DNA of 64,000 nt from Pseudidiomarina insulisalsae (GTDB lineage Bacteria; Pseudomonadota; Gammaproteobacteria; Enterobacterales; Alteromonadaceae). The position numbers and the translations under genes were made by a program. The notes under the pieces were generated by a model. That model had not been told where the DNA came from. It ran no database searches and saw only the letters and a program-made list of their open reading frames with translations. The stretch covers positions 1 through 64,000 of the forward strand of contig NZ_PIPY01000010.1 of assembly GCF_003987065.1 (NCBI RefSeq), written 5' to 3'. Below, in pieces: positions 27,757 to 45,754 of this stretch. Numbering within the stretch: position 1 is the first letter of the stretch; the number at the start of each line of letters is the position of its first letter.

Positions 27757-27832
27757 GGCCCCTTAGCTCAGTGGTTAGAGCAGCCGACTCATAATCGGTT
27801 GGTCCCCAGTTCAAATCTGGGAGGGGCCACCA
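27757..27832 (+). tRNA. ileX: tRNA-Ile2 (anticodon CAT, lysidine type)
   Basis: A 76-base tRNA with CCA encoded. The acceptor stem GGCCCCT pairs with AGGGGCC. The anticodon stem CCGA/TCGG closes the loop CTCATAA with CAT at 27790-27792. The body matches E. coli ileX/ileY almost throughout, including the acceptor stem and D-arm, and differs from elongator tRNA-Met (GGCTACG acceptor). The C34 is therefore expected to be converted to lysidine by TilS so that it reads AUA. In E. coli ileX also lies near rpoD. Confidence 0.95.
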
Positions 27833-27985
27833 ATAAAGTCATTAAGTTACGGTATTTCTTGAGCCTTTGAAGGTGCAATCTCCGTGCTCCCGCTCTTGGT
27901 ATATTAGCAGGCTCGTCCAAATAGGAAATTTATTAAGACCTGTCCTATACTTTTTGAAAGTCGAGCGAGCACAGGGATATTAACG

Positions 27986-29317
27986 ATGAACGATGAGACC
28001 CAGGCCAGCAGCGGCAAAAAAAAGATCTTCGTCGTCGGTGCCGACGACTACAATCTCTCCCTGATCGAGAAAATCCCAGGCTCGGAGAACTGGGAACTGA
28101 TCCGTACACTTGAATATTCTGACGTTCAGCCAGCCAGCGGCCGCATCGATTTCGACGAGCTTTATGAGCATGCCAGATCCATTATCGACGCGCATGGCGG
28201 CAAGCCAGATGCGATCATCGGCTATCTGGATTTTCCCGTGACCTCGCTCGTTTCGTTGCTGCGGCGCGACTACGCAATGCCGGGTGCTAGTCCCGAAGCG
28301 GTCGCGAAATGCGAGCACAAGTACTGGGCACGCCTGAAGGAGAAAGAGGCCTTTCCCGATGGCACACCCGAGGTGCGTGCCATCAATCCCTTCGATCCGG
28401 AAAATGCCAAGAAAGAGGCGCCGGACTATCCGTTTTGGCTCAAACCGGTCAAAGGTCACTCCTCCGTGCTCGGATTTCTGGTCGAGGACGAGGAAGAATT
28501 CGATGAGGCGTTGCACGCCTGTCGCCAGAAGATTCATCTGATCGGCGAGCCTTTCAACGCTTTCCTGGACAAGCTTGAGGACCGCAGCGAGATCGACGGT
28601 ATCGACGGTAATTTCGCCGTGGCCGAACAACTCATTTCGGCCAAGCGGCAGTTCACGTTGGAAGGCTATGTCTGGCAGGGCGAAACTAGGATCTACGGCG
28701 CGGTGGAATCCCTGCGCGAGGGCGAGCACGCGTCCAGCTTCTCGCGCTATCAGTATCCCGCCGATTTGCCCGAAGAGGTCATCGAGCGCGCCACCGAGAT
28801 CACCGGCAAGATGATGACGGCGATCGGCTATGACGGCTCACCGTTCAATGTCGAATTCTTCTATGATCCCGAAAGCGGCGACCTGCATCTGCTCGAAATC
28901 AACGCCCGAATCTCGAAGTCCCACTCTCCGTTATTCCACATGGTTGACGGCGCGGCTCACCAGAAGGTGGCTATCGAGCTGTCGATGGGGCTCGAGCCGG
29001 ACATGCCTCATCGCGAAGGAAAAGACGCCATCGCGGGCAAATTCATGCTGAGAAGCTTCGAGGCCGATGGCATTGTTAAGCGCGTGCCCAGCTCCGAAGA
29101 GATCGCAGAATTGAAACGCATCCTGCCCGATTTTGATGCGAACGTTCTTGTCGAGAAGGATCAGCGTCTCTCTGACATGTTTTTCCAGGACAGTTATTCG
29201 TACGAGCTTGCCGACATTTTCCTCGGCGGTGACGACAAGGACATGCTGGAGGATGCGTATAACCGGATCCTGGCTTCGCTTCCCATTTACATTCAACCGC
29301 TCCCCGAGAAAGTATGA
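27986..29317 (+). CDS. ATP-grasp ligase of unknown substrate, paired with a CocE/NonD hydrolase
   Basis: A 443-residue ATP-grasp enzyme. A pre-ATP-grasp Rossmann part (KKIFVVGADDYNLSLI ... GYLDFPVTSLVSLL) is followed by KCEHKYWAR, the ATP-binding lysine strand in PFWLKPVKGHSSVLGFLV, a second strand in AEQLISAKRQFTLEGYVW, and the metal-binding NVEFFYDPESGDLHLLEIN. This is the carboxylate-amine ligase fold; the amine and acid substrates are unknown. The downstream hydrolase gene overlaps its stop by four bases (ATGA). Codons end in C or G more often than in flanking genes, suggesting transfer. A -10-like TATACT lies at 27946-27951. Confidence 0.82.
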   Translation: MNDETQASSGKKKIFVVGADDYNLSLIEKIPGSENWELIRTLEYSDVQPASGRIDFDELYEHARSIIDAHGGKPDAIIGYLDFPVTSLVSLLRRDYAMPGASPEAVAKCEHKYWARLKEKEAFPDGTPEVRAINPFDPENAKKEAPDYPFWLKPVKGHSSVLGFLVEDEEEFDEALHACRQKIHLIGEPFNAFLDKLEDRSEIDGIDGNFAVAEQLISAKRQFTLEGYVWQGETRIYGAVESLREGEHASSFSRYQYPADLPEEVIERATEITGKMMTAIGYDGSPFNVEFFYDPESGDLHLLEINARISKSHSPLFHMVDGAAHQKVAIELSMGLEPDMPHREGKDAIAGKFMLRSFEADGIVKRVPSSEEIAELKRILPDFDANVLVEKDQRLSDMFFQDSYSYELADIFLGGDDKDMLEDAYNRILASLPIYIQPLPEKV

Positions 29318-31344
29318 AAAGCGTATCCGACTTTCCCCACGAGATCATCGAGGAGGAGAATGTCTGGATCCCGGTCGGCGATGGCCTGAAGCTGGCCGCG
29401 CGTATCTGGCGCCCAAAGGATTCAGGCGACGATCCGGTGCCGGTGATCCTGGAATACATTCCCTATAGAAAGCGCTTCGGTTCGACCGTGCGCGACGAGA
29501 TCACGCACAAATACCTCGCCGGGCACGGCTATGCCTGTGTTCGCCTGGACATTCGGGGCAGCGGGGAGTCCGAGGGCGTGCTGACTGACGAGTACCTGCA
29601 GAGCGAGCTCGATGACGGCGTGGCTGCCATCCACTGGCTGGCTGAGCAGGACTGGTGCGATGGCAATGTCGGAATGATGGGCATCAGCTGGGGCGGGTTC
29701 AACGGTCTGATGATCGCGGCGATGCAGCCCGAACCGCTCAAGGCCATCGTTACGGTCTGCTCCAGTGACGACCGCTATGCCGACGACATCCACCACATGG
29801 GCGGCACGCTGTTGGGCGACAATCTCTCCTGGGCTGGCGTCATGTTCTCTTACAACACCATGCCGCCCGATCCCGCGCTAGTGGGGGACCGCTGGAAGGA
29901 CATGTGGATGGAGCGCCTGAAAGGTAGCGGACTGTGGCTGAAGACCTGGCTGCAGCATCAGCGCCGCGACAGCTACTGGCGGCACGGCTCAGTTTCTGAG
30001 CATTACGGCGACATCAAGATCCCGGTCTTCGCAGTCTCAGGGTGGGCCGACGGCTATACCAATACCGTCTTCCGCCTCATGGAAAATCTCGACGTGCCGC
30101 GTAAGGGCCTCGTCGGGCCCTGGGGTCACACCTATCCGCATATCGGCAGCCCCGGGCCGGCCATCGACTTTCTCGGCGAGCTTCTCGATTGGTGGGATCA
30201 CTGGTTGAAAGGCAAGGACCGCGGCATGGACGACGAGAACATGCTATGCGCCTACATGCAGGACTCCGCCCCGCCCAACCCTCAGTACAAATACCGCAAG
30301 GGCCGCTGGGTGGTCGAGGCTGAATGGCCGAGCCCGGATATCGAGCCTCGCGCTTACACCTTCGGGACCGGACGCCACCTCATCGCAGAGAATAGCGGGG
30401 AGGAGACCGGGGAGGTAGGCATGAAAGTCCAGTCCCCGGTCACGCTGGGACTGTTCGCCGGCAAATGGTGTTCCTACGCCAACGGGCCGGATCTCGCCGG
30501 TGACCAGCGTTCCGAGGACGGCGGCGGACTGATCTTCCAGACTCACGAGCTGGAAGAGGACGTGGAGATTCTTGGTCAGCCGGTCGTCGAACTCGAGTTG
30601 GAGAGCGACCAGCCGCTCGCCATGGTCGCGGTGCGCCTGTCGGATTTCTTGCCCGACCATCAAATCACGCGCGTCACCTACGGAATGCTCAACCTCACCC
30701 ATCGTGACAGTCGCCAGCACCCCGAATTACTGGAACCGGGCAAGCGCTACAGGGTCAAGGTGCCCTTGAACCACATCGCCCAACGCTTCGAGAAGGGCCA
30801 CCGAATTCGGGTTTCGGTATCCACCGTCTACTGGCCAATGGCTTGGACCCCACCGGAATCGACCAAACTCACGGTCTATACGGGCAAGAGCCGGATCATC
30901 CTGCCCTGCCGCACGAAAAATATCGGCGGTGAGGAGGAGGCAAGCTTTGATCCGCCGGTCTGCGCGCATCCGCCTTCGACCACCGTGTACGAACCGGGCG
31001 CGCATCGCTGGCTGGTCCATCGCGATCTTGCTGACCAGCGCTCCGAACTGGAGGTCATCGATGATCGCGGCCTATTCCGGTTCGACGATATCGACCTGAC
31101 GGTCGGCACCCATGCGGTGGAGAAATATTCAGCCGTCACGGGCGATTTCACCAGTGTAAGGGGGACAACCGAGTGGATCCGGACACTCCAGCGCGACGAC
31201 TGGAAGATCAAGACCCGGACCTATACCTGCCTGACCTCGGACGCGAATAATTTCTACATCCGCGCCGAACTCGATGCCTATGAAGGCGACACGCGGGTGT
31301 GCTGCTTTAGCTGGGACGAAACGATCCCGCGCGACCATATTTGA
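29314..31344 (+). CDS. CocE/NonD family alpha/beta hydrolase (S15 X-Pro dipeptidyl-peptidase-like)
   Basis: A 676-residue hydrolase without a signal peptide. The alpha/beta domain has the nucleophile Ser125 in GISWGGFN and predicted partners Asp246 (SGWADGYTN) and His272 (WGHTYPH). The C-terminal half is the jelly-roll domain of X-Pro dipeptidyl-peptidases and CocE, containing LSDFLPDHQITRVTYGMLN and RVKVPLNHIAQRFEKGHRIRVSVS. The family cleaves amide or ester bonds (Xaa-Pro peptides, cocaine, glutaryl-amides). An extra segment after about residue 580 is beyond the usual domain. Translation is coupled to the ATP-grasp gene, so it may act on the ligase product. Base composition is GC-rich relative to neighbours. 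Confidence 0.88.
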   Translation: MKSVSDFPHEIIEEENVWIPVGDGLKLAARIWRPKDSGDDPVPVILEYIPYRKRFGSTVRDEITHKYLAGHGYACVRLDIRGSGESEGVLTDEYLQSELDDGVAAIHWLAEQDWCDGNVGMMGISWGGFNGLMIAAMQPEPLKAIVTVCSSDDRYADDIHHMGGTLLGDNLSWAGVMFSYNTMPPDPALVGDRWKDMWMERLKGSGLWLKTWLQHQRRDSYWRHGSVSEHYGDIKIPVFAVSGWADGYTNTVFRLMENLDVPRKGLVGPWGHTYPHIGSPGPAIDFLGELLDWWDHWLKGKDRGMDDENMLCAYMQDSAPPNPQYKYRKGRWVVEAEWPSPDIEPRAYTFGTGRHLIAENSGEETGEVGMKVQSPVTLGLFAGKWCSYANGPDLAGDQRSEDGGGLIFQTHELEEDVEILGQPVVELELESDQPLAMVAVRLSDFLPDHQITRVTYGMLNLTHRDSRQHPELLEPGKRYRVKVPLNHIAQRFEKGHRIRVSVSTVYWPMAWTPPESTKLTVYTGKSRIILPCRTKNIGGEEEASFDPPVCAHPPSTTVYEPGAHRWLVHRDLADQRSELEVIDDRGLFRFDDIDLTVGTHAVEKYSAVTGDFTSVRGTTEWIRTLQRDDWKIKTRTYTCLTSDANNFYIRAELDAYEGDTRVCCFSWDETIPRDHI

Positions 31345-31447
31345 GGATACCCATCAGAAGCACATGGAGAAAAGGGAATAAGATCGCTCGGCAAATTACC
31401 GACGGGCGGTCACCTGGCAAAACTTGGCAGTTTTACGCTTAAATCCA

Positions 31448-32368
31448 CTAAAAATAGGTTTTATTAATCTGCTCAGCAATTTTTATCATGCCCAACTGCA
31501 TGTCATCGATGAACTCATGCAGCTCTTGTTGCTCCAGGCACTGCGGCTTGCCATCGACGAGCTGCGTTTCTAACTTCTCAGTGGCTTCGACCGCTTTTTC
31601 ATGGCGTGGCAGCTCTTCTAGTAAAGCTTTTACCTGATGCAGGGTGTGCAGCAGTGACCGCGGGAAACGCGGTTCGAGTAATAAAAATTTCAGCACATCA
31701 GGGCGGTTGATGCGCAGTCGTACTTTCTGGCGGTACATCTGATATGCCGACATGGACTTCAGTACGCTCATCCATTGAATATTCTCAAAGGTGGACTGAT
31801 CACCGTCAAGCTCGGGCAGTAGCGATGCCGAGCGCACGTCGATAATGCGGGTGGTCATGTCGCCACGTTCAAGATTGCGGCCAAGACGTATAAAAGCATA
31901 GCCTTCATCGTGGGTCATAATACCGGCCAGGGTGCCGGTAATGGTTTGATTGGCGCGGATGACGCCACTCAGAGCCTCATAGCGGCGTCGGCGCCCTAAC
32001 AGAGCCTGGCGGTTTTGCATCGCCGACAGGTATAAGCCGTTGACTTGCTCCCAGATCTCCGACGGAATGATCTCCCTTACGGTGCGAGCATTCTCACGCG
32101 CTTGGGTGAGTGAGTTAATAATCGAGCCCGGATTTTCTTTGTCGGTGACAAGATATTTCACCACACTGGCTTCATCGGCCTTGTCATAGCGCTCGTAAAA
32201 GCCATCGCGGCCGGAGAGAATATCGATAATCGGCTCCCAGCCCAGCTTAACCGTAGTGGGAAGATCCATTAACAGGTGCGAGTTGACGTTAATCAAACGC
32301 GCGGTGTTTTCGGCGCGCTCCAGATACCGTGCCATCCAGAACATATTACTTGCAACGCGTGACAACAT
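31448..32368 (-). CDS. alpha-E domain protein (DUF403)
   Basis: A 306-residue all-helical protein of the alpha-E family, starting with the hallmark MLSRVASNMFWMARYLERAENTAR and carrying further family stretches (ARENARTVREIIPSEIWEQVN, YAFIRLGRNLERGDMTTRIIDVR). These proteins occur next to circularly permuted ATP-grasp enzymes and are thought to support a peptide- or amide-forming system; no activity is proven. It starts two bases after the ATP-grasp stop, so the two are one operon. In many genomes a transglutaminase-like gene follows; here it is missing. Confidence 0.92.
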   Translation of the reverse strand: MLSRVASNMFWMARYLERAENTARLINVNSHLLMDLPTTVKLGWEPIIDILSGRDGFYERYDKADEASVVKYLVTDKENPGSIINSLTQARENARTVREIIPSEIWEQVNGLYLSAMQNRQALLGRRRRYEALSGVIRANQTITGTLAGIMTHDEGYAFIRLGRNLERGDMTTRIIDVRSASLLPELDGDQSTFENIQWMSVLKSMSAYQMYRQKVRLRINRPDVLKFLLLEPRFPRSLLHTLHQVKALLEELPRHEKAVEATEKLETQLVDGKPQCLEQQELHEFIDDMQLGMIKIAEQINKTYF

Positions 32369-32370
32369 GA

Positions 32371-33822
32371 TTAAGCCTCCATATCCACTATCCAGGTGTC
32401 CTTACTGCCACCGCCCTGCGACGAATTGACCACAATGGAGCCTTTGCGTAGGGCAACGCGGGTCAGGCCACCGGTGGTGACCTTGATATCTTTGCCGCTT
32501 AAAATAAAGGGGCGCAGATCGAGATGCCGCGGTTCAGCCTTGGTTTCGACCAGCGTTGGCGCGGTAGAGAGCATCAACATTGGCTGCGCCACATAATTTC
32601 GCGGGTCGCGGCGGATCAGGCGCTTAAATTTTTCGCACTCGGCTTTGCTCGCGTGCGGACCTATCAGCATGCCGTAACCACCGGATTCATTGGCCGGCTT
32701 GACCACCATCTTATGAATATTTTCAATAACGTAATCGCGGTCCTCTTTATTAATGCACTTGTAGGTAGGTACATTCGGAATACTTGGCTCTTCATTGAGG
32801 TAATAGCGAATAATTTCGGGCACAAAGGCGTAAACCACTTTATCGTCGGCGACACCTGAGCCCGGCGCATTGGCCAGCGCTACCTTGCCAGCTTTCCAGG
32901 CGCGCATCAGGCCGGGTACACCGAGCATCGAGTCGGGATTAAACACCTCGGGGTCAAGAAAGTGATCATCAATACGGCGGTAAATAACATCCACCCGCGC
33001 AGGGCCCTCAATGGTGCGCATGTAAACCACATTATCGTCATCGACAAATAAGTCGCTGCCCTCAACCAGCTCGGCGCCCATCTGTTGGGCAAGGTAGGCG
33101 TGTTCAAAATAGGCCGAGTTGTAGATACCTGGGGTCAGTACAACAATTTCCGGGTGCTCGATGTCGCGCGGCGACAGCTGCGAGAGCATGTCGTACAGGT
33201 GAGACGGATAATCGTCTACCGGTAAAATGCTGTATTGCTCAAACATTTCCGGGAAGACGCGCTTCATCACCTTGCGATTTTCAAGCATATAGGAAACCCC
33301 TGAGGGTACGCGCAAATTGTCCTCCAGCACGTACACAGTACCGTCACTGTCGCGAACCAGGTCCGAACCGCAGATATGCGCCCAGATGCCTAATGGCGGA
33401 TGTACGCCTTTACACTCAGGTAAGAAGTTCTTCGACTTTTTCAGCAGCTCTTCGGGGAACACGCCGTCTTTGACAATTTTTTGCTCGTTGTAAAGATCGT
33501 CTATAAACATGTTCAGCGCTTTCACCCGCTGCTTTAAACCTTTTTCAATCTGCAGCCATTCTTGCTTGTCGATAATGCGCGGGATGATATCGAAGGGCCA
33601 GTCACGGTCGATGGAGCCTTCATCTTCATGGTACACCCGAAAACTGATGCCCATGACATGTATGGCAGACTCGGCAGCAACCTTAAATTCTTCCAGGTCA
33701 TTGTCGGTCAGGCTGCGCAAATAGCCACAAATAATCTCGGCTGCGGCGCGCGGCTTTCCTGCAGCTCGCAGCAGTTCATCGTAAAGATTGGTAGTTTTGT
33801 AACTTCCCCAACGAATGGTCAT
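32371..33822 (-). CDS. circularly permuted ATP-grasp ligase (CP_ATPgrasp)
   Basis: A 483-residue enzyme of the circularly permuted ATP-grasp group. Family sequences include LLRAAGKPRAAAEIICGYL, VYVLEDNLRVPSGVSYMLENR, DVIYRRIDDHFLDPEVFNPDSMLGVPGLM and MVVKPANESGGYGMLIG, the last holding the ATP-binding lysine and glycine loop. It probably ligates an amino group to a peptide or other carboxylate; the substrate is not known. I start at the ATG at 33822, with AGAGG about nine bases upstream; an in-frame start at 33879 would run past the promoter below. First gene of the two-gene operon with the alpha-E protein. Confidence 0.92.
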   Translation of the reverse strand: MTIRWGSYKTTNLYDELLRAAGKPRAAAEIICGYLRSLTDNDLEEFKVAAESAIHVMGISFRVYHEDEGSIDRDWPFDIIPRIIDKQEWLQIEKGLKQRVKALNMFIDDLYNEQKIVKDGVFPEELLKKSKNFLPECKGVHPPLGIWAHICGSDLVRDSDGTVYVLEDNLRVPSGVSYMLENRKVMKRVFPEMFEQYSILPVDDYPSHLYDMLSQLSPRDIEHPEIVVLTPGIYNSAYFEHAYLAQQMGAELVEGSDLFVDDDNVVYMRTIEGPARVDVIYRRIDDHFLDPEVFNPDSMLGVPGLMRAWKAGKVALANAPGSGVADDKVVYAFVPEIIRYYLNEEPSIPNVPTYKCINKEDRDYVIENIHKMVVKPANESGGYGMLIGPHASKAECEKFKRLIRRDPRNYVAQPMLMLSTAPTLVETKAEPRHLDLRPFILSGKDIKVTTGGLTRVALRKGSIVVNSSQGGGSKDTWIVDMEA

Positions 33823-33851
33823 ACACGACGTCCTCTGTTGTTCTGCTAACC

Positions 33852-33879
33852 TAATTAAAGATAGTGGCAAATGCGTCAA
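33852..33879 (-). promoter_or_regulatory. promoter of the CP-ATP-grasp / alpha-E operon
   Basis: On the minus strand TTGACG (33879-33874) and TAATTA (33857-33852) are 16 bases apart. It points away from the Anbu promoter 28 bases further right, so the two halves of the locus are expressed divergently from one short region. Confidence 0.5.
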
Positions 33880-33906
33880 AAAGACAAAAAACTGTTGCTT
33901 TTGGTT

Positions 33907-33934
33907 TTGAACTGCATTGCAAATACGCTACATT
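33907..33934 (+). promoter_or_regulatory. promoter of the Anbu peptidase gene
   Basis: TTGAAC (33907-33912) and TACATT (33929-33934) with a 16-base spacer. Transcription would begin near 33941, about 32 bases before the GTG start at 33973. This argues against any start upstream of it. Confidence 0.5.
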
Positions 33935-33972
33935 CGGAAGAAGTTTCGCTTGCTCACCGGGGAGAGTATTTA

Positions 33973-34713
33973 GTGACTTATTGTTTGGCAATTCATGTGA
34001 ATAACGGCTTGGTCTTTGCCTCTGACTCGCGAACTAACGCGGGTGTCGATTACGTGGCAACTTACAGTAAAATGTTTCGCTTTGTCTGGCCCGGCGAGCG
34101 CAGTGTGGTGTTATTGACCGCGGGCAGCCTCGCGACTTCGCAAGCGGTGGTTAACGCCATCAAATCCGATCTAGAAGACCCTGACGCATCGTTTAATCTG
34201 CGCAAAGGTAAACACCTCTATGATCTGGCCAGCTATATTGGCGGATTAAGCCAAAAAGAACAGCAACAGCATGCGCAGGCACTGGAGAAGAGTAACGCCA
34301 GCCCGGAGGCCAGCTTTATTATCGGCGGGCAAATTGCCGGTAAAGCCTGTGAGGCCTACATGATTTACCCGCAGGGCAACTATATTAGTGCCTCGGAAGA
34401 CACGCCGTATTTGCAGATTGGCGAAAACAAATACGGCAAACCCATATTAGATCGCATCATCGCTCCCGACACCTCACTGGAAGATGCGGCGCGATGCGCG
34501 ATGATCTCAATTGACTCTACAGTGCGCAGTAATATCAGTGTAGGGTTGCCTCTTGAGCTCGCTATTTACACGAACGACAGCCTGGACGAGCCCTGGCACA
34601 ACAAATATCGTGCACTAAGCCCCATGTATAAGTCCATGCAAAAGCAATGGAATGAGGGTTTGCGGCAGGCATTCTCAGGCCTGCCAAGGTTCGACTGGGA
34701 AAAAGAAGATTAA
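33973..34713 (+). CDS. Anbu family proteasome-like peptidase
   Basis: A 246-residue Ntn-hydrolase of the Anbu (ancestral beta subunit) family, related to HslV and the 20S proteasome. From the GTG start it reads MTYCLAIHVNNGLVFASDSRTNAGVD, so removal of Met exposes Thr2 as the N-terminal nucleophile; the conserved SDSRTNAG motif and later GGQIAGKACEAYMIYPQGN are present. GGGGAG lies eight bases before the GTG, and a promoter lies within the 102-base frame extension upstream, so the start is well supported. It is divergent from the CP-ATP-grasp/alpha-E operon with which Anbu usually co-occurs. Its stop overlaps that of the metallopeptidase. Confidence 0.92.
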   Translation: MTYCLAIHVNNGLVFASDSRTNAGVDYVATYSKMFRFVWPGERSVVLLTAGSLATSQAVVNAIKSDLEDPDASFNLRKGKHLYDLASYIGGLSQKEQQQHAQALEKSNASPEASFIIGGQIAGKACEAYMIYPQGNYISASEDTPYLQIGENKYGKPILDRIIAPDTSLEDAARCAMISIDSTVRSNISVGLPLELAIYTNDSLDEPWHNKYRALSPMYKSMQKQWNEGLRQAFSGLPRFDWEKED

Positions 34714-35801
34714 GTGCCGTTGCGACAGGCCGCGCAGATCACTTTGTCGACAAAGCGCAACTTATCCAGTGCCAGACTGGAAAAGACAAACGGGTAAGCG
34801 TCGCCGTGTCCCATACTGCGGTTAAGTGCGTTTAGCATCCCGGTTAAGCGCACCCAGTCATCATACAGCTGATTAAAATGCGCCGTGGTTTGCTCCGGCC
34901 TCGTCGGCGGTAACTGCTGAAGCGGATTAATAACCGGATGAGCTGAGACACTAAAGTCATAGTCACTGGCGGTCTCAAGGGTATCCACCATGTGCAGGTA
35001 GTGCGCCCAGGTTTCTGCCCAGTCTTCCCAGGGGTGCATGCTTGCGTAAGCACTTACCCACACTTTGTGCCAGTCTGGCGCGGGCCCCTCTCGATAGTAG
35101 TTTTGTAAGGCCAGCGTGTAGTCGAGCCGCTCGTCACCAAACAGCGCCCGAAACTCCTCCAGCCACGGGCTGTTGTGGATGAGCCTGTCCCAGTAGTAAT
35201 GACCTGACTCGTGGCGAAAGTGGCCCAGCAAGGTGCGGTATTGCTCGTTCATCTGCTCGCGCATCTGCACGCGTGCACTGGCTCTTGCTTCTTTTAGGTT
35301 GAGCGTGATCACACCGGCGTTGTGGCCGGTGGTAACAAAGCTTTTGACCGTAAGCTCATTCCCGTATTCGTCTTCGGTCTGATCTTCGAGAAACTCAAAA
35401 GCCAGACCATGTTCGGGATCTTCTTGCTGCGAGCGTACTGGTAATCCCAATTTGAACAAAGTGTACAGCAAGCGCCGTTTGGCTTGCTCCATGCGTGCCC
35501 AAAGCCTGCGGTTGCCGCGTATATCAAGGTTTGGAATGGTTCGGGTTAATGCACAGGAGGTACAAAATTCACCCGTGTCTTCCACTGGAATCATCCAGTT
35601 GCATACATCCTGCACGACATAGTTCTGGCATGGACGGTAGCGTTTACCATTGAGTGCTGCCAACCAGGTGCCATCTTGCTCACGGTTAAATGCGCTGAGC
35701 TTATTCTCCTCGGGTATGAAACCAAGCATGCGCCCGCACGCTACACACTGAGTGTTAGCGAAATAAAGCGTGTTTCCACACTGGCACGAGAAGGTGAGCA
35801 T
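34710..35801 (-). CDS. putative zinc metallopeptidase with N-terminal zinc ribbons
   Basis: A 363-residue protein. The N-terminus has a zinc ribbon of CxC and CxxC pairs (SCQCGN, CVACGRML), followed by another cysteine set around FCTSCALTRTIPN. The catalytic zinc motif is HESGH in LLGHFRHESGHYYWDRLI, with a downstream glutamate in WAETWAHYLHM. This is the pattern of the putative zinc-binding metallopeptidase family found near alpha-E / CP-ATP-grasp genes. No signal peptide is seen, so it acts in the cytoplasm. It converges on the Anbu gene with a four-base stop overlap. Confidence 0.87.
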   Translation of the reverse strand: MLTFSCQCGNTLYFANTQCVACGRMLGFIPEENKLSAFNREQDGTWLAALNGKRYRPCQNYVVQDVCNWMIPVEDTGEFCTSCALTRTIPNLDIRGNRRLWARMEQAKRRLLYTLFKLGLPVRSQQEDPEHGLAFEFLEDQTEDEYGNELTVKSFVTTGHNAGVITLNLKEARASARVQMREQMNEQYRTLLGHFRHESGHYYWDRLIHNSPWLEEFRALFGDERLDYTLALQNYYREGPAPDWHKVWVSAYASMHPWEDWAETWAHYLHMVDTLETASDYDFSVSAHPVINPLQQLPPTRPEQTTAHFNQLYDDWVRLTGMLNALNRSMGHGDAYPFVFSSLALDKLRFVDKVICAACRNGT

Positions 35802-35987
35802 TGTATAGTTCTCCCGACATTTACGAGCAACGCATCTTTTTTAGTTCTACTTCAGCAACTAACTTAGCATGTTCGTGAGCAAAACGAAGCTAATAGGAGT
35901 GAAAGCCGCTGGCATTATCAGTAGTTTATACCATGCTTAAACGAATAAAGTTTAAACGGGTGTGCGCGGTAAACAGGGGAGGACGTC

Positions 35988-36890
35988 ATGCGGGTTGTAG
36001 CAGCCTTAGGGGGAAATGCTGTTTCGCCAAGAGGCGAAAAACTCACCGCTGAGAAACAACGAGAAAATATAAAAGGAGCGGTACAGGCGCTGGTAAAAAT
36101 TGTGCGTGCGGGTCATGACCTGGTCATTACCCATGGGAATGGTCCGCAAATCGGTCTGCTAGCATTACAAAATGATGCCTACGACCGAAATAACAGTTTC
36201 CCGCTCGACATTTTGGGCGCTGAGTCGGAAGGGATGATCGGTTATATGCTGGAGCAGGAACTGGAAAGTGAGCTAGGTGAGGAACCTGAAGTCGCCACTG
36301 TTTTGACGCAAATTGCCGTGGTTGAGGATGATCCCGCCTTTGCTGATCCGCACAAGTTTGTTGGCCCGGTTTATGACGAGGAGCAGGCACAGCAGTTGAA
36401 AGATGAGCGGGGCTGGTCGATTGCGAAAGATGGCGACAAGTGGCGCCGCGTAGTGCCGTCACCTGCGCCACAGAAAATTCTTGATTTGAAAGTCTTGCAG
36501 TTACTGGTTGCCCACAAGATTATCCCTATTTGCATTGGCGGTGGCGGTATACCCGTCGTACAGCATTCTGATGGTAGCTATCATGGGGTTGAAGCAGTCA
36601 TTGATAAAGATGCGGCGAGCGCCTTATTGGCCCGCCAACTCGATGCCGACGCGTTATTACTGCTGACGGATGTCGCAGCCGTTTACGAAAATTATGGCAG
36701 TTCTGAGCAAAAAGCGATCGCGCATATGACGGTTGCAAAGGCGCAAAATTTCGATGCCCCCGCAGGTTCCATGGGGCCAAAAATTCAAGCCGCGGCAGAG
36801 TTCGCGCAGCATGGAGATTTTAGCGTTATTGGCTGTTTGGACGACGCGCTGGCCATGCTGGAGCACCGTGCTGGTACCTGTATCCGATAA
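35988..36890 (+). CDS. arcC: carbamate kinase (orphan)
   Basis: A 300-residue amino-acid-kinase-fold enzyme that interconverts carbamoyl phosphate plus ADP with carbamate plus ATP. Motifs are VAALGGNAVSP at the N-terminus, VITHGNGPQIG, the carbamate-kinase insertion with KFVGPVYDEEQA and VVPSPAPQKI, ICIGGGGIPVV, VIDKDAASALLA and the C-terminal GSMGPKIQAA. No arginine deiminase or ornithine carbamoyltransferase gene is in the window, so it is not in an arc operon; it may use carbamoyl phosphate from another source. A strong GGGGAGGA precedes the ATG. Confidence 0.93.
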   Translation: MRVVAALGGNAVSPRGEKLTAEKQRENIKGAVQALVKIVRAGHDLVITHGNGPQIGLLALQNDAYDRNNSFPLDILGAESEGMIGYMLEQELESELGEEPEVATVLTQIAVVEDDPAFADPHKFVGPVYDEEQAQQLKDERGWSIAKDGDKWRRVVPSPAPQKILDLKVLQLLVAHKIIPICIGGGGIPVVQHSDGSYHGVEAVIDKDAASALLARQLDADALLLLTDVAAVYENYGSSEQKAIAHMTVAKAQNFDAPAGSMGPKIQAAAEFAQHGDFSVIGCLDDALAMLEHRAGTCIR

Positions 36891-37018
36891 GTCATTTCCG
36901 CTGCTTTTTTCGCTTGTCTGTTAATAAGGTGTTGTGTACGCTCATGACATTCTTCTCGCTGAGGATAGGGGTCTTCTGGCGTGTTGCCTCAAAGCTTACT
37001 TGAAAAGGAATTATCATA

Positions 37019-37720
37019 GTGAAATACAGTGTTATTGCGATTGCTCTTTTGCTGTCGGGTTGTGCAGCCACCCAGAACCAGCAACCGCAGGAAGTTGCCT
37101 CCCAGGTGAGTCCTCTCGTACAACATCTTGATCGTGGTGTCGAAGCCTTGTCGGCAGGTGACATGCAGCTAGCCGGCAGCGCGATCGATCAAGCCCTGGC
37201 ACTGTGTGCGAAAGAGCTGGAAGGTAATGAGCAACGTTATTATGCGTCCCGCGGCATGGCGGAGTCGATGTTTTACATGCTGATGGCCGCCCAGAGCGGC
37301 GCGGATGCGGTAGACATTGATACGAGCTGCGGCGATGCGTTGTATTTACGAACCTATATCAGTGTTGAGCAGGGCGATATTGATCAGGCCGAGCGCCTGA
37401 TACGCCAGGCGTTAGAGCTGTCGCCGGCAAATGCCATGTATTTGGCAGAGTTAGGCCACATCTATCACCTTAAGCGGGACTGGAAAGGTGCGCTTGATGT
37501 CTTTACTAAAGCGGAGTCTTATGCCCTGGCATACTCGCCTGAGCACCGCAAAGTTGAAGAGCTCGGGCGGGCAAAACGAGGTATGGGATTTAGCCTGATT
37601 GAACTTGGCCAACTTGATGAAGCCGAGGCAAAATTTAAAGAGTGTTTAGAGCTGAATAAGCAGGATCTCAACGCGTTACAGGAACTTGAGTATATTAAAC
37701 AGTTGCGTAGTCAGGGGTAG
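37019..37720 (+). CDS. TPR-repeat lipoprotein
   Basis: A 233-residue lipoprotein starting with GTG. The short signal peptide ends at LLLSGC. The mature protein has tetratricopeptide helices, clearest in ALYLRTYISVEQGDIDQAERLIRQALELSPANAMYLAELGHIY and the next two repeats (about residues 105-225), where it should bind a partner protein. It contains two more cysteines (ALCAKEL, SCGDA). AAGGAA lies eight bases before the start. The patatin gene follows after seven bases, so they share a transcript. Function unknown. Confidence 0.82.
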   Translation: MKYSVIAIALLLSGCAATQNQQPQEVASQVSPLVQHLDRGVEALSAGDMQLAGSAIDQALALCAKELEGNEQRYYASRGMAESMFYMLMAAQSGADAVDIDTSCGDALYLRTYISVEQGDIDQAERLIRQALELSPANAMYLAELGHIYHLKRDWKGALDVFTKAESYALAYSPEHRKVEELGRAKRGMGFSLIELGQLDEAEAKFKECLELNKQDLNALQELEYIKQLRSQG

Positions 37721-37727
37721 GCGATTA

Positions 37728-38612
37728 ATGAGCAGTCACGGGCACAGGTCAATTGTTGTTGAGGGTGGCGCAATGCGTGGGATTTTTGCCGCTGGCGTGC
37801 TGGATGGCTTCATGCGCGAGGCATTTAAGCCCTTCGACTTCGCTATCGGCGTATCGTCGGGGTCAACCAACCTTATCGGCTATCTGACCGGTGACTACCA
37901 GCGAAGCTACCGGATCCTGACTGAGCTTGCGCAATCGAAGCATTTTATTGATCCGATTCGGGGCATGCTCGGTGGCCATCTATGTGATGTTGAGTGGCTA
38001 TGGCGCACCTCCTATGACACTATCGAGCTTCATCTGGAGCGCTATTTGCAACAAAGAATTCCGCTGTACGCGGTGACCACACGAGTTGAAGATGGCGCGC
38101 CCTGTTACATTGAGGTGACCGAACAAAATCTGCACCAGTTATTCCCGGCCTCGTGTGCCATACCGATAGCGTTTCGCGACTTCCCTGAAGTTGATGGCGT
38201 AGCCATGACCGACGGCGGTGTCGCTGATTCAATTCCGGTGGTCAAAGCTTATGAAATGGGCGCGCGGGAAATTACTGTGGTTCTTTCCAGAGCCGAAGGC
38301 TACCGGAAAACCGGTAGTCGTACATTGGGCTTTACCCGTCGGTTATTAAGTCACTATCCGAAGCTCTGCGATGCCATTGAGGCTCGTGCCGAGCGCTATA
38401 ATGCGACGATTGACTTTATCAATAGCCCGCCCTCAGACTGCACCATTCATGTTATTGCGCCGCCCAAAGATATGCCGGTTGGGCGCTTCACGCGTCAGCG
38501 TGAGCGCCTTGAAGTGGGATATAATGCCGGCTTGCGCGCCGCCTTTGAGCACATCGATAAGCTCTCAGGCGCGCAACCTATTGCTCGCCAACCAGAAACT
38601 CTGGCGCAGTAA
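37728..38612 (+). CDS. patatin-like phospholipase (YjjU-like)
   Basis: A 294-residue patatin-family lipid acyl hydrolase similar to E. coli YjjU. The oxyanion loop is EGGAMRGIFAAGVL, the nucleophile serine sits in GVSSGS (GxSxG), and the catalytic aspartate is in MTDGGVADSIP. It has no signal peptide. I start at the ATG at 37728, where homology begins. It is seven bases after the TPR lipoprotein gene. Its last 35 bases overlap the convergent amidase gene. Confidence 0.88.
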   Translation: MSSHGHRSIVVEGGAMRGIFAAGVLDGFMREAFKPFDFAIGVSSGSTNLIGYLTGDYQRSYRILTELAQSKHFIDPIRGMLGGHLCDVEWLWRTSYDTIELHLERYLQQRIPLYAVTTRVEDGAPCYIEVTEQNLHQLFPASCAIPIAFRDFPEVDGVAMTDGGVADSIPVVKAYEMGAREITVVLSRAEGYRKTGSRTLGFTRRLLSHYPKLCDAIEARAERYNATIDFINSPPSDCTIHVIAPPKDMPVGRFTRQRERLEVGYNAGLRAAFEHIDKLSGAQPIARQPETLAQ

Positions 38613-40152
38613 AGCCACCAATCTTCGCTTCGAGCATAGCCGCAAGGCTAAAGAGTTGCGGCTCACTCCAGGGCAAGCCCACCAGGCTTAAACCTAATGG
38701 CAGTGAACCCTGCTGGCCTTCCTGCATGCCCAGAGGCACGGTAATTGACGGATAGCCTGAAACCGCAGCAGCGGTTGAAGTGCCAAAACTGAAGCTACCG
38801 CCTTCTGCGGGCGGGGTAGGCCATGCCGGACCATAAGAGGGCAACAGAATGGCGCTGGCACCCTTACCTTTTAAGTACTGATTCAGATGCGCTTCGGCAA
38901 GGCGGCGACCTTCAGTGAGCGCCTGGTGGTAGCTCTCGGCTGCTTCAGCAAGATCAATGGCGTTCGCTTGCTCAAAGTACTCCTGGCCAAAGAGCGCAAG
39001 TTCACGTTCGGCGTTCGCTTTATTGTAATCAATCACCGCCTGCATGGTAGCTGCTGGTGCACCAAATTCTGCCAGCCAGGCGTTTAGATCGCGTTTAAAC
39101 TCATAAAGAAGAACTTCGAATTCGGCTGCATAAAGCGCATCAGGAAGCTCCCATTGGGCGACTTCTACCACCTCGAAACCTTGCGATTTCAAAGTTCGTA
39201 CAACATCGTCAACCATGTTTTTAACGCCGCTGAACTGATCGTCGAACGCTCTGACCACAATAACTTTTTCGGTCTCAACAGCTTGTTGCGCTGCGTTACT
39301 TAATGAGACTCCGTACCGGCTTCTTGCCTCGGCAGTTGCCATGGTGTCAAGCAATAGCGCTGCTCCATAAACTGAGCGCGTCATTGGGCCAGCGATATCC
39401 TGTGCTGCGGCAATGGGAATAATGCCATAGCCTGAGACCGCGCCACGCGTTGGTTTAACGCCCACCACACCATTTACCGAAGCCGGGCACATAATGGAAC
39501 CATCGGTCTCGGTGCCCACCGCAAGCAAGGTGAAATCGGCAGCAACCGCGGCACCCGAACCCGAGCTGGAGCCACAGGGATTATGGGTCAGCAAATGCGG
39601 GTTACGCGTTTGTCCACCGATGCCCGACCAGCCGCTGATGGAGTTCTCGCCACGGAAATTCGCCCATTCGGATAGGTTGGCTTTACCAAGAATAATGGCG
39701 CCACTTTGCCGTAGTTGGGTCACCAGCGTAGCGTCTTTTGCGGTAATAAAACCTTGCATGACACTTGCACCAGCCGTGGTTGCAAGACTATCAGCGGTTG
39801 CGATGTTGGCTTTTAACACGACAGGTAAGCCGTGCAGAGGGCCGCGTATTACGCCCCGGCGCCTCTCTTCATCCATTTGTCTGGCCAGCGCCAGCGCGTC
39901 CGGGTTCACTTCAATAATCGCCCGAATCTCGTAACCGTCGCGATTATTAGCCGCGATCGCGTCCAGGTAATGCTGTACCAATGCCTCGCTGGTAAGGGTG
40001 CCGGCAGTCAACTGCTGCTGTACTTTTGCTGTATCAGTAAAGCTTAGCTCTGCTGACCCGGTGGCTTGTGGTGCCGAAGCGCTACAGCCGGTCATGATCC
40101 AAGCCGTTGCGAGTATCAGAAGCCGTAGATTAGTGAGGTAAGGCTGGATCAC
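38578..40152 (-). CDS. lipoprotein amidase of the amidase signature family
   Basis: A 524-residue amidase-signature enzyme with a lipoprotein signal peptide (lipobox MTGC, Cys23), so it is membrane-anchored outside the cytoplasm. The Ser-cisSer-Lys triad is visible: Lys114 in GLPVVLKANIAT, the cis-serine in the CGSSSGSG loop (195-197), and the nucleophile Ser219 in GTETDGSIMCPAS. It hydrolyses amides; peptide-amide or aryl-acylamide substrates are possible. It is a single gene, convergent with the patatin gene (35-base overlap) and divergent from the PIMT operon. Confidence 0.9.
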   Translation of the reverse strand: MIQPYLTNLRLLILATAWIMTGCSASAPQATGSAELSFTDTAKVQQQLTAGTLTSEALVQHYLDAIAANNRDGYEIRAIIEVNPDALALARQMDEERRRGVIRGPLHGLPVVLKANIATADSLATTAGASVMQGFITAKDATLVTQLRQSGAIILGKANLSEWANFRGENSISGWSGIGGQTRNPHLLTHNPCGSSSGSGAAVAADFTLLAVGTETDGSIMCPASVNGVVGVKPTRGAVSGYGIIPIAAAQDIAGPMTRSVYGAALLLDTMATAEARSRYGVSLSNAAQQAVETEKVIVVRAFDDQFSGVKNMVDDVVRTLKSQGFEVVEVAQWELPDALYAAEFEVLLYEFKRDLNAWLAEFGAPAATMQAVIDYNKANAERELALFGQEYFEQANAIDLAEAAESYHQALTEGRRLAEAHLNQYLKGKGASAILLPSYGPAWPTPPAEGGSFSFGTSTAAAVSGYPSITVPLGMQEGQQGSLPLGLSLVGLPWSEPQLFSLAAMLEAKIGGFTAPEFLVGEQ

Positions 40153-40357
40153 GAGATGTTCCTTTTTATTATTTAGAGTGACGACTTGTTTTTATACTAG
40201 AAAAAAAACCGCACATAAACAGCCAGGCAGTCATGGTCGTGTTTTATTTAATTTGGCTGATTCAAAACTGAGTGACTACACTTAGTGACGCATATAAGTA
40301 ACAAACATGAAAACTGGAGATTGCGACACACAAAAAAACATGCCAAAGGTGACAACC

Positions 40358-40987
40358 ATGAACACCAAGGAAATCATGATAGAGCGCCATCTAAAGGGTA
40401 GAGATATCGCGGATGAGCGTGTAATTGAGGCGATGCGAGAAGTGGATCGCTCGCTGTTTGTACCTGAGGAACTACAGCAACATACCTACGATGACAGGCC
40501 TTTGCCCATTGGTAAAGGACAAACCATTAGCCAGCCTTACATTGTGGCCTACATGGCACAAGCGCTGGACCTTAAGCCCAATGATAAAGTTCTCGAAATA
40601 GGTACCGGTTGCGGCTATAACGCTGCCGTACTGTCCCACCTGGCCGGCGAGGTTTACTCGATTGAAATTATTGAGTGGCTGGCCGAGCTGGCAAAAAACA
40701 ATCTGGCCAAAACTGATATTGATAATGTACAGACCCGTTATGACGACGGTTATCAGGGTTGGCCTGAGAACGCGCCCTTTGACGCGATCGAACTGACCGC
40801 TGCGCCGGCGAAGATTCCCGAAACCCTGAAACAGCAGCTGAAAATTGGCGGCCGACTACTTGCACCTGTGGGTACCGAACGCCAGGAGCTGGTGGTATTG
40901 GAGCGCACCGGGGAAGATACCTTCGAAGAAACGAAATTACTGTTAGTACGTTTTGTCCCCATGACCGGGCTGGCCGAGAAGGAGTAA
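40358..40987 (+). CDS. pcm: protein-L-isoaspartate O-methyltransferase
   Basis: PIMT repairs isoaspartyl residues in aged proteins with SAM. The protein is 209 residues from the ATG at 40358, close to E. coli Pcm (208). Motifs are the substrate loop LPIGKGQTISQPYIVAYM, SAM motif I VLEIGTGCGYNAAVL, and FDAIELTAAPAKIPE, followed by GGRLLAPVG. I chose 40358 because AAGGTGA lies directly upstream; earlier in-frame ATGs at 40307 and 40340 lack homology. Five bases separate it from the next gene, so it heads an operon with a protein of unknown function and an erythromycin-esterase-like enzyme. It is not next to surE/nlpD, so it may be a second copy. Confidence 0.92.
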   Translation: MNTKEIMIERHLKGRDIADERVIEAMREVDRSLFVPEELQQHTYDDRPLPIGKGQTISQPYIVAYMAQALDLKPNDKVLEIGTGCGYNAAVLSHLAGEVYSIEIIEWLAELAKNNLAKTDIDNVQTRYDDGYQGWPENAPFDAIELTAAPAKIPETLKQQLKIGGRLLAPVGTERQELVVLERTGEDTFEETKLLLVRFVPMTGLAEKE

Positions 40988-40992
40988 CTATC

Positions 40993-42138
40993 ATGACCGA
41001 AGCGAATGCGACGAAGGCGGCGCAAGCGCGCGATATCATGATGGGTTTCGCGCAGCGTACCGGACTTACCGAGGATGCCTCAGATAGTAGCCGTCGTTAT
41101 CTCTGGACCGACGCTTTTGCGACATTAAACTTTCTCGCGCTGAAGCGCCAATTCGATGCGCGCGAATTTGAGGCGATGGCACTGCGCACCATCAAGCAGG
41201 TGCACTGCCACTTAGGGCAGTTTGCCGCTGACGATCAGCGCGAGGGCTGGATTAGTGGCCTCACCGGAGACAATGCGCTTGAGCATCCCACGGTGGGCGG
41301 TTTACGAATAGGCAAAGAGTTACTTGAGCGCACTCCCGAAGAGTCTTATGACGCTGAGCTGGAGTGGCAGCGCGACGGTCAGTACTATCATTACCATACC
41401 CGCTGGATTGTGGCACTGCTGCGGGCGAGCAAACACTTTAACAACGAGCAGCTAGCACTGTGGGCCGCCGAGCTAAGTCTGGCTGGCGCCCGGTTTATGA
41501 GTAATGAAGTTGGCCGCGGTAACAGGCTGTACTGGAAGATGAGTATCGACTTATCCCGTCCTCTGGTACCCATGATGGGTGCCCATGATCCGCTGGAGGG
41601 CTTGCTCTGCGCGATGCAGACGTTCGCTGAAACTGGCACTTTCAAATATGAATTTGACGGCTACATTGCCAGGCTGAAAGAGCTCTGTGCCAGTTCCCAC
41701 TGGGCAACTGAAGACCCGCTTGGCGCTGGCTCGTTGTTACTTGACGTGGTTCGGGCGACCGAACTACAAGCATTTATGGAGTTACCGCCAGCCGTGAAGC
41801 CCCAGCGACTGATGCGTGATGCACAGCAAAGTCTGGAAGTCATTTATGAGAATTTCGATACTGGCGCTCCAGCGCATGCGCGATTAGCTTTTCGCGACTG
41901 CGGCTTGTCGCTGGGCTTACGCTGTCTGCAAGCGAGCGTACCTTTCATTGAAGCTAATGGCGTGGAAGTGCAAATCGAACCGGAAATTTGGCAGTTAGCA
42001 GATGACATTGAAGACTTCTGGAGCGATGCCCGAAACCAGGAGGCTTCGAGTTTTCAAAATCATCTGGATATTAACGAGGTCACCCTGGCGTCTAGCTTGC
42101 TGGCATCAAGCCAGCCGGAAATATTTACTCGTGTCTGA
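40993..42138 (+). CDS. protein of unknown function, possibly an alpha/alpha-toroid fold
   Basis: A 381-residue soluble protein that I do not recognise. It is mostly helical, with regularly spaced helix pairs and aromatic, acidic residues between them (RRYLWTDAFATLNFLALKR, YYHYHTRWIVALLRASKHF, ELSLAGARFMSNEVGRGNRLYWKM, HDPLEGLLCAMQTF). That pattern recalls alpha/alpha toroids of glycosidase and epimerase families, but no catalytic motif can be claimed. No signal peptide. It lies five bases after pcm and 34 bases before the erythromycin-esterase gene. Confidence 0.75.
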   Translation: MTEANATKAAQARDIMMGFAQRTGLTEDASDSSRRYLWTDAFATLNFLALKRQFDAREFEAMALRTIKQVHCHLGQFAADDQREGWISGLTGDNALEHPTVGGLRIGKELLERTPEESYDAELEWQRDGQYYHYHTRWIVALLRASKHFNNEQLALWAAELSLAGARFMSNEVGRGNRLYWKMSIDLSRPLVPMMGAHDPLEGLLCAMQTFAETGTFKYEFDGYIARLKELCASSHWATEDPLGAGSLLLDVVRATELQAFMELPPAVKPQRLMRDAQQSLEVIYENFDTGAPAHARLAFRDCGLSLGLRCLQASVPFIEANGVEVQIEPEIWQLADDIEDFWSDARNQEASSFQNHLDINEVTLASSLLASSQPEIFTRV

Positions 42139-42172
42139 ATGCGCCAGACCCAAAAAATCATGGAGGTAGTTC

Positions 42173-43471
42173 ATGAGCGACCCACTGATTAAAATTATTG
42201 AGCAATCTAAGCATGAGTTTAGCGGCACAGACGACTTAGCGCCCTTACTGGAAAGCCTTGCAGATAAAAAAATCGTGATGCTCGGTGAGGCTTCGCACGG
42301 TACCCATGAGTACTACCAGTGGCGTGCGCGCATCTCAAAAAAATTGCTGGAAGAACATGACTTTGACTTCGTTGTAGTAGAGGGTGACTGGCCCGCCTGT
42401 TATGAGCTGAACAGGCATGTCAAAGGTTATGCTGATGCGCCTGAAAAAACCACGGACGCGCTGAAGCACTTTGAACGCTGGCCGACCTGGATGTGGGCCA
42501 ACTGGGAGGTCTACGAATTCGCCCGCTGGCTTAAGGGATTTAATCAGGAGCGCAGTACCGGGGAACAAAAAGGCTTTTATGGATTGGACGTTTATAGCCT
42601 GTGGGAGTCAATGGACGCGGTCATGGATTACCTGAAAACAGAAGACCCGCAAGCCTATGAAGCGGCCAAAGATGCGATGCGTTGTTTCGAACCCTACCGC
42701 GATGAAGATGGTCAGCGGTATGCACTCTCGACGCAACTGGTACCTGAGGGTTGTGCCGATGAAGTCACCCGGTTGTTAGCCGAAGTACGTCGTAATGCCC
42801 CCACCTATAATTCTGATCGTGAGGAGGCGTTAAGCGCTGAGCAAAACGCTCATGTAAGTAAAAACGCAGAGCGCTACTATCGCATCATGGCCAGAGGCGG
42901 AGAGTCCACCTGGAATTTACGCGACCGCCACATGATGGACACATTGAATCGTCTGCTGGCATTTCACGGGCGCGATGCGAAAGGTATTGTCTGGGCCCAT
43001 AATACCCATATTGGCGACGCTACTTTTACCGATATGAGTACGCAGGGACTGTTTAATATTGGCCAGTTGGCGCGTGAAGAATATGGCAATAAGCAAGTCG
43101 CGTTGGTGGGTTTCGGCAGTTATGAGGGCAGTGTCATGGCGGGTAGCTCATGGGGTGCCCCAATGGCCGAGATGGACTTACCGGCTGCCCGCGAGGGTAG
43201 TTGGGAAGACTTGTGTAACCGGGCGGGCGAGCAGTTCTACCTGAACTCAGCCGACTTGGCCAGGCATGATGCCTTGTTGCGGCGTATCGCCCATCGGGCC
43301 GTCGGCGTAGTATATAATCCACGGCATGAACGTTATGGTAATTACGTTCCCACCGTGATTCCCAAGCGCTACGATCACTTCATTTTCTTTGCAGCGAGTC
43401 GGGCGCTACACGCTCTCGATATTAAAGCAGACTCTGAGACTATCCCTGATACCTATCCGTTTGCACTCTAA
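42173..43471 (+). CDS. erythromycin esterase family protein
   Basis: A 432-residue member of the erythromycin-esterase (EreA/succinoglycan-biosynthesis) superfamily. The catalytic motif GEASHGTHEYYQWR holds Glu39, His42, His45 and Glu46, and the second histidine region is VWAHNTHIGD. Other family stretches are FVVVEGDWPACYELN and YGLDVYSLWESM. Chromosomal members are rarely proven macrolide esterases; the substrate is unknown. GGAGG lies before the ATG, and it is the last gene of the pcm operon. The Fur box of the TonB receptor gene follows its end. Confidence 0.9.
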   Translation: MSDPLIKIIEQSKHEFSGTDDLAPLLESLADKKIVMLGEASHGTHEYYQWRARISKKLLEEHDFDFVVVEGDWPACYELNRHVKGYADAPEKTTDALKHFERWPTWMWANWEVYEFARWLKGFNQERSTGEQKGFYGLDVYSLWESMDAVMDYLKTEDPQAYEAAKDAMRCFEPYRDEDGQRYALSTQLVPEGCADEVTRLLAEVRRNAPTYNSDREEALSAEQNAHVSKNAERYYRIMARGGESTWNLRDRHMMDTLNRLLAFHGRDAKGIVWAHNTHIGDATFTDMSTQGLFNIGQLAREEYGNKQVALVGFGSYEGSVMAGSSWGAPMAEMDLPAAREGSWEDLCNRAGEQFYLNSADLARHDALLRRIAHRAVGVVYNPRHERYGNYVPTVIPKRYDHFIFFAASRALHALDIKADSETIPDTYPFAL

Positions 43472-43497
43472 AAGGGGGCATATGTCACTCGCTCAAT

Positions 43498-43534
43498 GAT
43501 AATGATTGTCATTTACAAAAAAGCGATTTAATAT
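43498..43534 (+). promoter_or_regulatory. Fur box overlapping the promoter of the TonB-dependent receptor gene
   Basis: The 19-mer at 43498-43516 begins GATAATGAT and matches the Fur consensus at 15 of 19 positions. It overlaps TTGTCA (43506-43511), which is 17 bases from TAATAT (43529-43534). Iron-loaded Fur would therefore block this promoter. Confidence 0.82.
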
Positions 43535-43584
43535 CCCGGCTCATATCAGTAGCTAACCCTAACTTTTGGATTAAAGATAAAGAT

Positions 43585-45717: not shown

Positions 45718-45723
45718 AAGTAG

Positions 45724-45754
45724 GGGCGCGCCCTCAGGGGGCGCGTCCTCTTTT
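45724..45754. terminator. GC-rich intrinsic terminator between the TonB receptor and osmC-ycaO genes
   Basis: A ten-pair stem (45724-45733 with 45739-45748, one G-T pair) around a five-base loop, followed by TCTTTT on the plus strand. The T run overlaps the stop codon of the convergent gene, and a weaker T-rich stretch on the other side could serve that gene. Confidence 0.8.

Follow-up and report, generated by a model that had tools for sequence, protein, structure and literature searches.

An ATP-grasp/CocE gene pair and a variant Anbu locus as probably separate modules in a Pseudidiomarina tRNA-Met cargo hotspot

We analysed a stretch of 64,000 nucleotides from Pseudidiomarina insulisalsae (contig NZ_PIPY01000010.1, positions 1 to 64,000; the window), in which an ATP-grasp ligase, a CocE/NonD hydrolase, an alpha-E protein, a circularly permuted ATP-grasp protein (CP-ATP-grasp), the proteasome-like peptidase Anbu and a zinc-ribbon metallopeptidase (Mx) are encoded side by side (27986..35801). 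An earlier reading made from the letters of the DNA (the sequence-only reading) had proposed a single system built around Anbu. Our analysis indicates that the ATP-grasp/CocE pair and the Anbu block are very probably (we estimate about 0.93) two independent modules that share a cargo hotspot next to a tRNA-Met gene. The explanation as a whole, which joins this separation to a chemistry for the pair and a variant form of the Anbu locus, is considered likely. The result parts two puzzles that looked like one.

Relation of the pair to the Anbu block

The ORF list and Pfam/NCBIfam searches showed that the six frames are all open and adjacent, and the family assignments of the sequence-only reading agree with these searches. 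The genes are not one transcription unit, since the pair is read on the forward strand, alpha-E and CP-ATP-grasp on the reverse strand, Anbu on the forward strand and Mx again on the reverse strand. Contiguity favours a single six-gene system, in which both ligases would make, and Anbu, Mx and CocE would cut, the same type of bond. We nevertheless consider such a system highly improbable; the strands differ, and linkage, co-occurrence, spacing and divergence also argue against it.

Named genomes were scanned with an alignment of 11 sequences, which gave at least 592 pattern matches and at least 534 confirmed ligase relatives; the best 80, ranked by similarity, were taken as a locus set. The flanks of the 78 loci of this set from outside Pseudidiomarina contained no match to Anbu, alpha-E, CP-ATP-grasp or Mx; they span at least 5 kb to either side in 44 loci and about 10 kb in 38. 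We also drew 398 genomes evenly from the phylum, and the co-occurrence counts assume that this one sample underlies the ligase, Anbu, ectoine and Mx searches, whose sizes and handles agree. The ligase matched in 11 of these genomes: the window's own, nine others with 10 loci, and G331, which has a 26% match and no CocE in its stretch. At none of the 10 loci is the pair linked to Anbu. Repeated linkage of the pair to the Anbu genes, the check proposed with the sequence-only reading, was thus seen neither in the 78 named loci nor in the 10 further ones. At the level of whole genomes the pair is INDEPENDENCE from Anbu: Anbu occurs in 144 of the 398 genomes. It was found in 3 of the 9 other pair genomes, compared with 140 of 388 (two-sided Fisher p = 1), so that co-occurrence sits at background. 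In the three pair genomes with Anbu (G161, G109 and G324) it lies on another contig or 2.3 Mb away. The family of G463 has the ligase in 63 of 126 genomes (CocE was not checked there) and Anbu in four; in the two genomes with both (G558 and G577), ligase and Anbu are separated by over 1 Mb or lie on separate contigs.

The evidence that weighs against separate modules comes from inside the genus. In a survey of 26 Pseudidiomarina genomes the ligase was found in three and Anbu in five, and the Anbu block is present in all three pair genomes against 2 of the 23 others (p = 0.004, uncorrected for relatedness or for the shared hotspot). A shared hotspot together with kinship can yield such a co-occurrence. 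The spacing of the two parts is not fixed: CocE and alpha-E are 0.10 kb apart in the window and 1.80 kb apart in G006, and in G005 a gap of 6.26 kb holds four genes, which encode a subtilase, an S10 peptidase, a PhzF-like protein and a GGDEF protein. In G002 and G020 the Anbu block is present and the pair absent. Just past the pair in G006 we observed a 66-bp fragment (L054:4515-4580) with 92% identity to the alpha-E/CP-ATP-grasp junction (window 32328-32393), which is perhaps the scar of an older Anbu block.

The hotspot is bounded on the left by tRNA-Met (CAT; 27757..27832, + strand; ARAGORN, Rfam). The amidohydrolase gene to the left of this tRNA is present in 19 of the 26 genus genomes, and the DNA to its right was fetched from 18 of them, the window's own genome being excluded. 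All 18 regions have tRNA-Met at the same place, and in 15 the right anchor is the same YcaO-type gene; the remaining three stretches stop short or lack the anchor. The cargo between the anchors varies widely, with some genes common to close genomes. This hypervariable cargo, which runs from tRNA-Met to a YcaO/OsmC-type gene in the window (27832-45753) and in L040-L057, includes several peptidases and hydrolases among its identified members. Phage-type integration at the tRNA was considered and set aside, the 3' end of tRNA-Met not being duplicated in the window; an integrase was not searched for.

The two parts also differ in divergence. A GC-rich cassette of 3.47 kb (27876..31346), comprising the region upstream of the pair and both pair genes, is 95.3% identical between the window and G005 and 96.7% between G005 and G006, that is about 95-97% across three species. 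Windows of 100 bases inside the pair genes are 91-100% identical to G005 or G006. Identity falls sharply at both ends of the cassette, the right edge being 2 nt past the CocE stop; outside its edges the adjoining genes are 74-80% identical or show no homology. Among the same three genomes, identity is 74-80% for the Anbu block and about 75-80% for the amidohydrolase/tRNA stretch. The GC content at third codon positions is 0.71 and 0.78 in the pair genes, compared with 0.51-0.62 in the 11 other genes measured. The sequence-only reading was right to offer chance insertion as an alternative. In a quick ligase tree of 81 sequences, made without bootstraps, the three Pseudidiomarina ligases are sister to that of Euryhalocaulis caribicus (Shimodaira-Hasegawa-like approximate likelihood ratio test, SH-aLRT, 96), within a nine-row clade (100) whose six non-Pseudidiomarina rows are alphaproteobacterial. 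The simplest reading is that the pair was acquired from an alphaproteobacterium, and we infer that it has probably spread recently by transfer. The region upstream of the pair is conserved inside the genus, with no clear conservation relative to four alphaproteobacterial loci. The ligase search of plasmids matched nine records at 21-36% identity, none reaching 60%.

The ATP-grasp/CocE pair

The ligase gene (27986..29317, + strand, 443 residues; ATP-grasp_4 4e-9) overlaps by 4 nt the CocE gene that follows it on the same strand (29314..31344, 676 residues). Of the best 80 loci, 68 have CocE directly after the ligase in the same orientation, as do all 10 loci of the nine other sample genomes; in two more of the 80, CocE is on the opposite strand, 1.3-3.6 kb away. 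The pairwise distances of ligase and CocE correlate with r = 0.93 over 67 sequence pairs including that of the window, and none of 2000 permutations was as high. These comparisons establish the pair as a widespread predicted two-gene operon, both genes of which diverge together. Set against a fixed couple are the 10 of 80 ligase loci with no CocE in reach. The downstream sequence of these 10 is shorter than 1.3 kb in three, 2.5 and 8 kb in two, and 10 kb in five (L141, L150, L152, L153 and L154, two of them Halomonas), where CocE gave no match; the ligase may also act alone, in a solo form.

Clustering of the neighbouring frames across the 80 loci gave no constant third partner. Additional ATP-grasp frames in the pair loci proved to be overlapping shadow frames, except for a second copy in L174, and the D-lactate-dehydrogenase-like neighbours (named by eye) of four Thioalkalivibrio loci and Kangiella looked lineage-specific. 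Eight of the 80 loci (L104, L107, L138, L143, L162, L165, L169 and L175) have TRAP-transporter-like genes, also identified by eye, no more than about 9 kb from the ligase. The literature searched gave no description of the pair and no paper naming both CocE and ATP-grasp; in PMC13357991 the sole occurrence of CocE is a surname, and PMC9006882 contains none of six terms looked for. The pair is a common, well-conserved gene couple, and it is directly testable in tractable halophiles.

Among the folds compared, that of the ligase matched L-amino-acid ligases best; PurK, PurT and biotin carboxylases trail by 2 to 6 Z units. Two observations count against an amino-acid ligase: the closeness of those other folds, and the fact that the top Foldseek match by E-value is 4dim, titled as a phosphoribosylglycinamide synthetase. 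Identity to the L-amino-acid (dipeptide) ligases BL00235, YwfE/BacD and RizA is about 16%, and the present ligase, unlike these, usually shares an operon with a CocE-type hydrolase. The hydrolase has the features of CocE/NonD enzymes, namely an S15 domain (Peptidase_S15), a PepX_C domain and a motif-assigned Ser-Asp-His triad, with TIGR00976 (CocE_NonD, 2e-69) well over its cut-off. Its closest solved relatives are cocaine esterases, from which it differs in being about 100 residues longer and in being paired with a ligase gene. The triad residues Ser125, Asp246 and His272 (motifs GISWGG, WADG and GPWGH) are near-invariant in 67 sequences, as are 178 positions in total, across several phyla as judged by record titles.

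It is reasonably probable, from fold and motif comparisons, that the pair consists of a ligase that forms amides and a hydrolase acting on related bonds. At the expense of ATP and by way of an acyl phosphate, the ligase would couple an amine to a carboxylate, which is probably an amino acid; the proposal relies on the L-amino-acid ligases, its best fold relatives, working in this manner. The Ser-Asp-His hydrolase, probably in the same compartment, would open the ligase product or a closely related compound. More speculatively, the product would be a small neutral amide or dipeptide that serves as a solute at high salt, made as salt rises and recycled as salt falls.

Many hosts in the 80-locus set come from the sea, salterns or soda lakes (Halomonas, Thioalkalivibrio, Ectothiorhodospira, Wenzhouxiangella, Photobacterium, Nitrosomonas marina and Salinisphaera); this host list is biased, because the loci were ranked by similarity to a halophile's protein. 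The 398-genome sample allows a less biased comparison, with ectoine synthase (PF06339) as the marker: it is present in 59 genomes, 58 of them above the curated cut-off. Seven of the 9 pair genomes have it, compared with 52 of 388 (odds ratio 22.6, p = 3e-5), four of the nine belonging to one family. A rough family-level count gave 4 of 6 against 15 of 98 (p = 0.01), with hand-made, approximate numbers. A salt-linked role is weakened by several observations. Kinship confounds the association, given the four pair genomes from one family; ectoine synthase is missing from two of the nine pair genomes and from the window's own genome; and the term "grasp" is absent from the main text of a halotolerance mutant study of H. 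beimenensis (PMC5638851), which has the ligase (L141). The literature searched contained no paper pairing "NonD family hydrolase" with "salinity". Passages of a report on P. terrestris describe growth at 0.5-17% salt, state that no ectoine or betaine synthesis genes were found and conclude that the osmoadaptation strategy could not be deduced from the genome (PMC10893183); the pair is present in a P. terrestris record (L099). According to a review from 2005, the enzymes behind neutral dipeptide and derivatised amino acid osmolytes were then unexplored (PMC1224877). We take both papers as leads. The neutral amide and dipeptide solutes of halophiles named there, N-acetylglutaminylglutamine amide and N-carbamoylglutamine amide, resemble the product proposed for the pair, and a link of the pair to their synthesis is put forward as a proposal. 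The review also mentions Ectothiorhodospira marismortui; the pair occurs in a different Ectothiorhodospira species (L112).

With these points in mind, a role of the pair at high salt appears plausible. That its product is a salt-linked solute is possible but doubtful. We would call rather unlikely the fuller proposal of a portable salt cassette, whose ligase would make an undescribed neutral amide or dipeptide solute and whose hydrolase would dismantle it when salt falls; such a cassette would pass from one marine or hypersaline bacterium to another and could supply, for example, the osmolyte route not found in P. terrestris. Were the pair to make a solute, it could account for the salt tolerance of organisms without known osmolyte genes. 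The pair could instead be a catabolic or detoxification unit, in which CocE opens an imported ester or amide and the ligase re-amidates or traps the freed acid, the salt association reflecting habitat only. The relationship of the hydrolase to cocaine esterases, the TRAP-transporter-like genes near eight loci and the patchy, transferred distribution of the pair are consistent with this. There is, however, no constant third gene adjoining the pair, and the 178 near-invariant CocE positions count against a xenobiotic role, such conservation being unusual for a specialised xenobiotic enzyme. A catabolic unit is also a possible but doubtful account.

The Anbu block and the metallopeptidase Mx

Alpha-E (31448..32368, 306 residues; Alpha-E 2e-93) and CP-ATP-grasp (32371..33822, 483 residues; CP_ATPgrasp_2 1e-170) are both on the reverse strand and adjoin Anbu (33973..34713, + strand, 246 residues; Proteasome 2e-7, phmmer against a solved Anbu chain 2e-79). 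Mx (34710..35801, - strand) carries Zn_ribbon_DZR_6 and Peptidase_Mx domains (1e-102) with an HExxH motif (HESGH). The DUF2248 family had already been assigned to the zincins by its HExxH motif (PMC3650047). The Anbu operon, as set out in passages of PMC5666114 and PMC6376114, has four genes: CP-ATP-grasp, alpha-E, a transglutaminase-like gene and Anbu. The present locus resembles it in the adjacency of alpha-E and CP-ATP-grasp to Anbu and in the Anbu residues: Thr follows the initiator, and Asp17 and Lys32 (Lys32/33 in PMC6376114) are present, all by a count made by eye. It differs in that no transglutaminase gene is adjacent, Anbu is divergent from alpha-E/CP-ATP-grasp and the zinc-ribbon/HExxH metallopeptidase gene is convergent. 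No transglutaminase-like frame was found in the Anbu block of the window, nor, with one query, in its own genome. We sampled 20 Anbu loci at points along the list of 144 Anbu genomes; alpha-E and CP-ATP-grasp are present in 18, a transglutaminase in 15 and Mx in two. The sequence-only reading was right about the known association of alpha-E, CP-ATP-grasp and Anbu. These comparisons identify the alpha-E/CP-ATP-grasp/Anbu/Mx block as a variant of the Anbu locus that includes a metallopeptidase and lacks a neighbouring transglutaminase.

Mx adjoins Anbu in all five Anbu loci of the genus, with 75-76% protein identity. It occurs in 72 of the 398 genomes and, by by-eye comparison, beside Anbu in four (G000, G372, G193 and G275). 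The fetched stretches of the three from outside the genus (G372, G193 and G275) contain no transglutaminase. One classical-operon transglutaminase used as query found nothing in genomes G000, G002, G020 and G193 and a weak match in G372. We also picked 20 Mx loci from the 72 Mx genomes. Alpha-E and CP-ATP-grasp lie within about 7 kb of Mx in six of them (three at just 23-30% identity), and CP-ATP-grasp alone in one. In G027 (L198, C1 about 268-272 kb) alpha-E, CP-ATP-grasp and Mx are together, with Anbu 1.3 Mb away. Mx thus accompanies alpha-E/CP-ATP-grasp in a minority of lineages, and the Anbu-linked cases seen lack a transglutaminase. L200, L201, L202, L211 and L214 hold Mx with distant transglutaminase-like and CP-ATP-grasp matches and no Anbu; they perhaps represent a second alpha-E-type locus.

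The chance that Mx stands in for the transglutaminase-like protein in these Anbu loci seems to us slightly below even. On this weak inference Mx would do in these loci what that protein does in the usual ones, and the slot may be a hydrolase slot. Two findings tell against such a replacement: G275 has an unlinked transglutaminase-like match (34%), and 5 of the 20 Mx loci have a distant match of this kind (23-25%) no further than about 7 kb from Mx. Because both genes occur near each other in those five, replacement is only one reading. Mx could be a separate accessory or a chance neighbour of Anbu and no stand-in at all, to which we assign somewhat less than an even chance; those same five loci fit this, as does the presence of Mx beside Anbu in only 4 of 398 genomes when 72 have Mx and 144 have Anbu. 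A chance neighbour is harder to reconcile with an adjacency held throughout the genus loci and in three further genera, with the six Mx loci that hold alpha-E and CP-ATP-grasp, and with the trio in G027. The variant bears on a standing question, the role of the transglutaminase-like member of Anbu operons; if a metallopeptidase can replace that member, it is more likely a hydrolase than a cross-linker.

Gene starts and adjoining features

The Anbu start is most likely GTG 33973 rather than the upstream ATG 33871, since Thr is then the second residue (V-T-Y-C...) and is bared once the initiator is removed, as in solved Anbu. For CP-ATP-grasp the start is most likely ATG 33822 and not TTG 33879; from ATG 33822 the protein has 483 residues, the same length as its genus relatives. 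The divergent Anbu and alpha-E/CP-ATP-grasp genes are separated by 150 bp, and the convergent Mx and Anbu genes overlap by 4 nt. Scans for sigma-70 promoters and terminators remained near the shuffled level (9 against 6.2 shuffled and 9 against 8.7 shuffled, respectively). A carbamate kinase gene (window 35988-36890) lies beside the block; the fetched stretches of G006 and G020 gave no match to it, and in G002 and G005 a match is located near the Anbu block.
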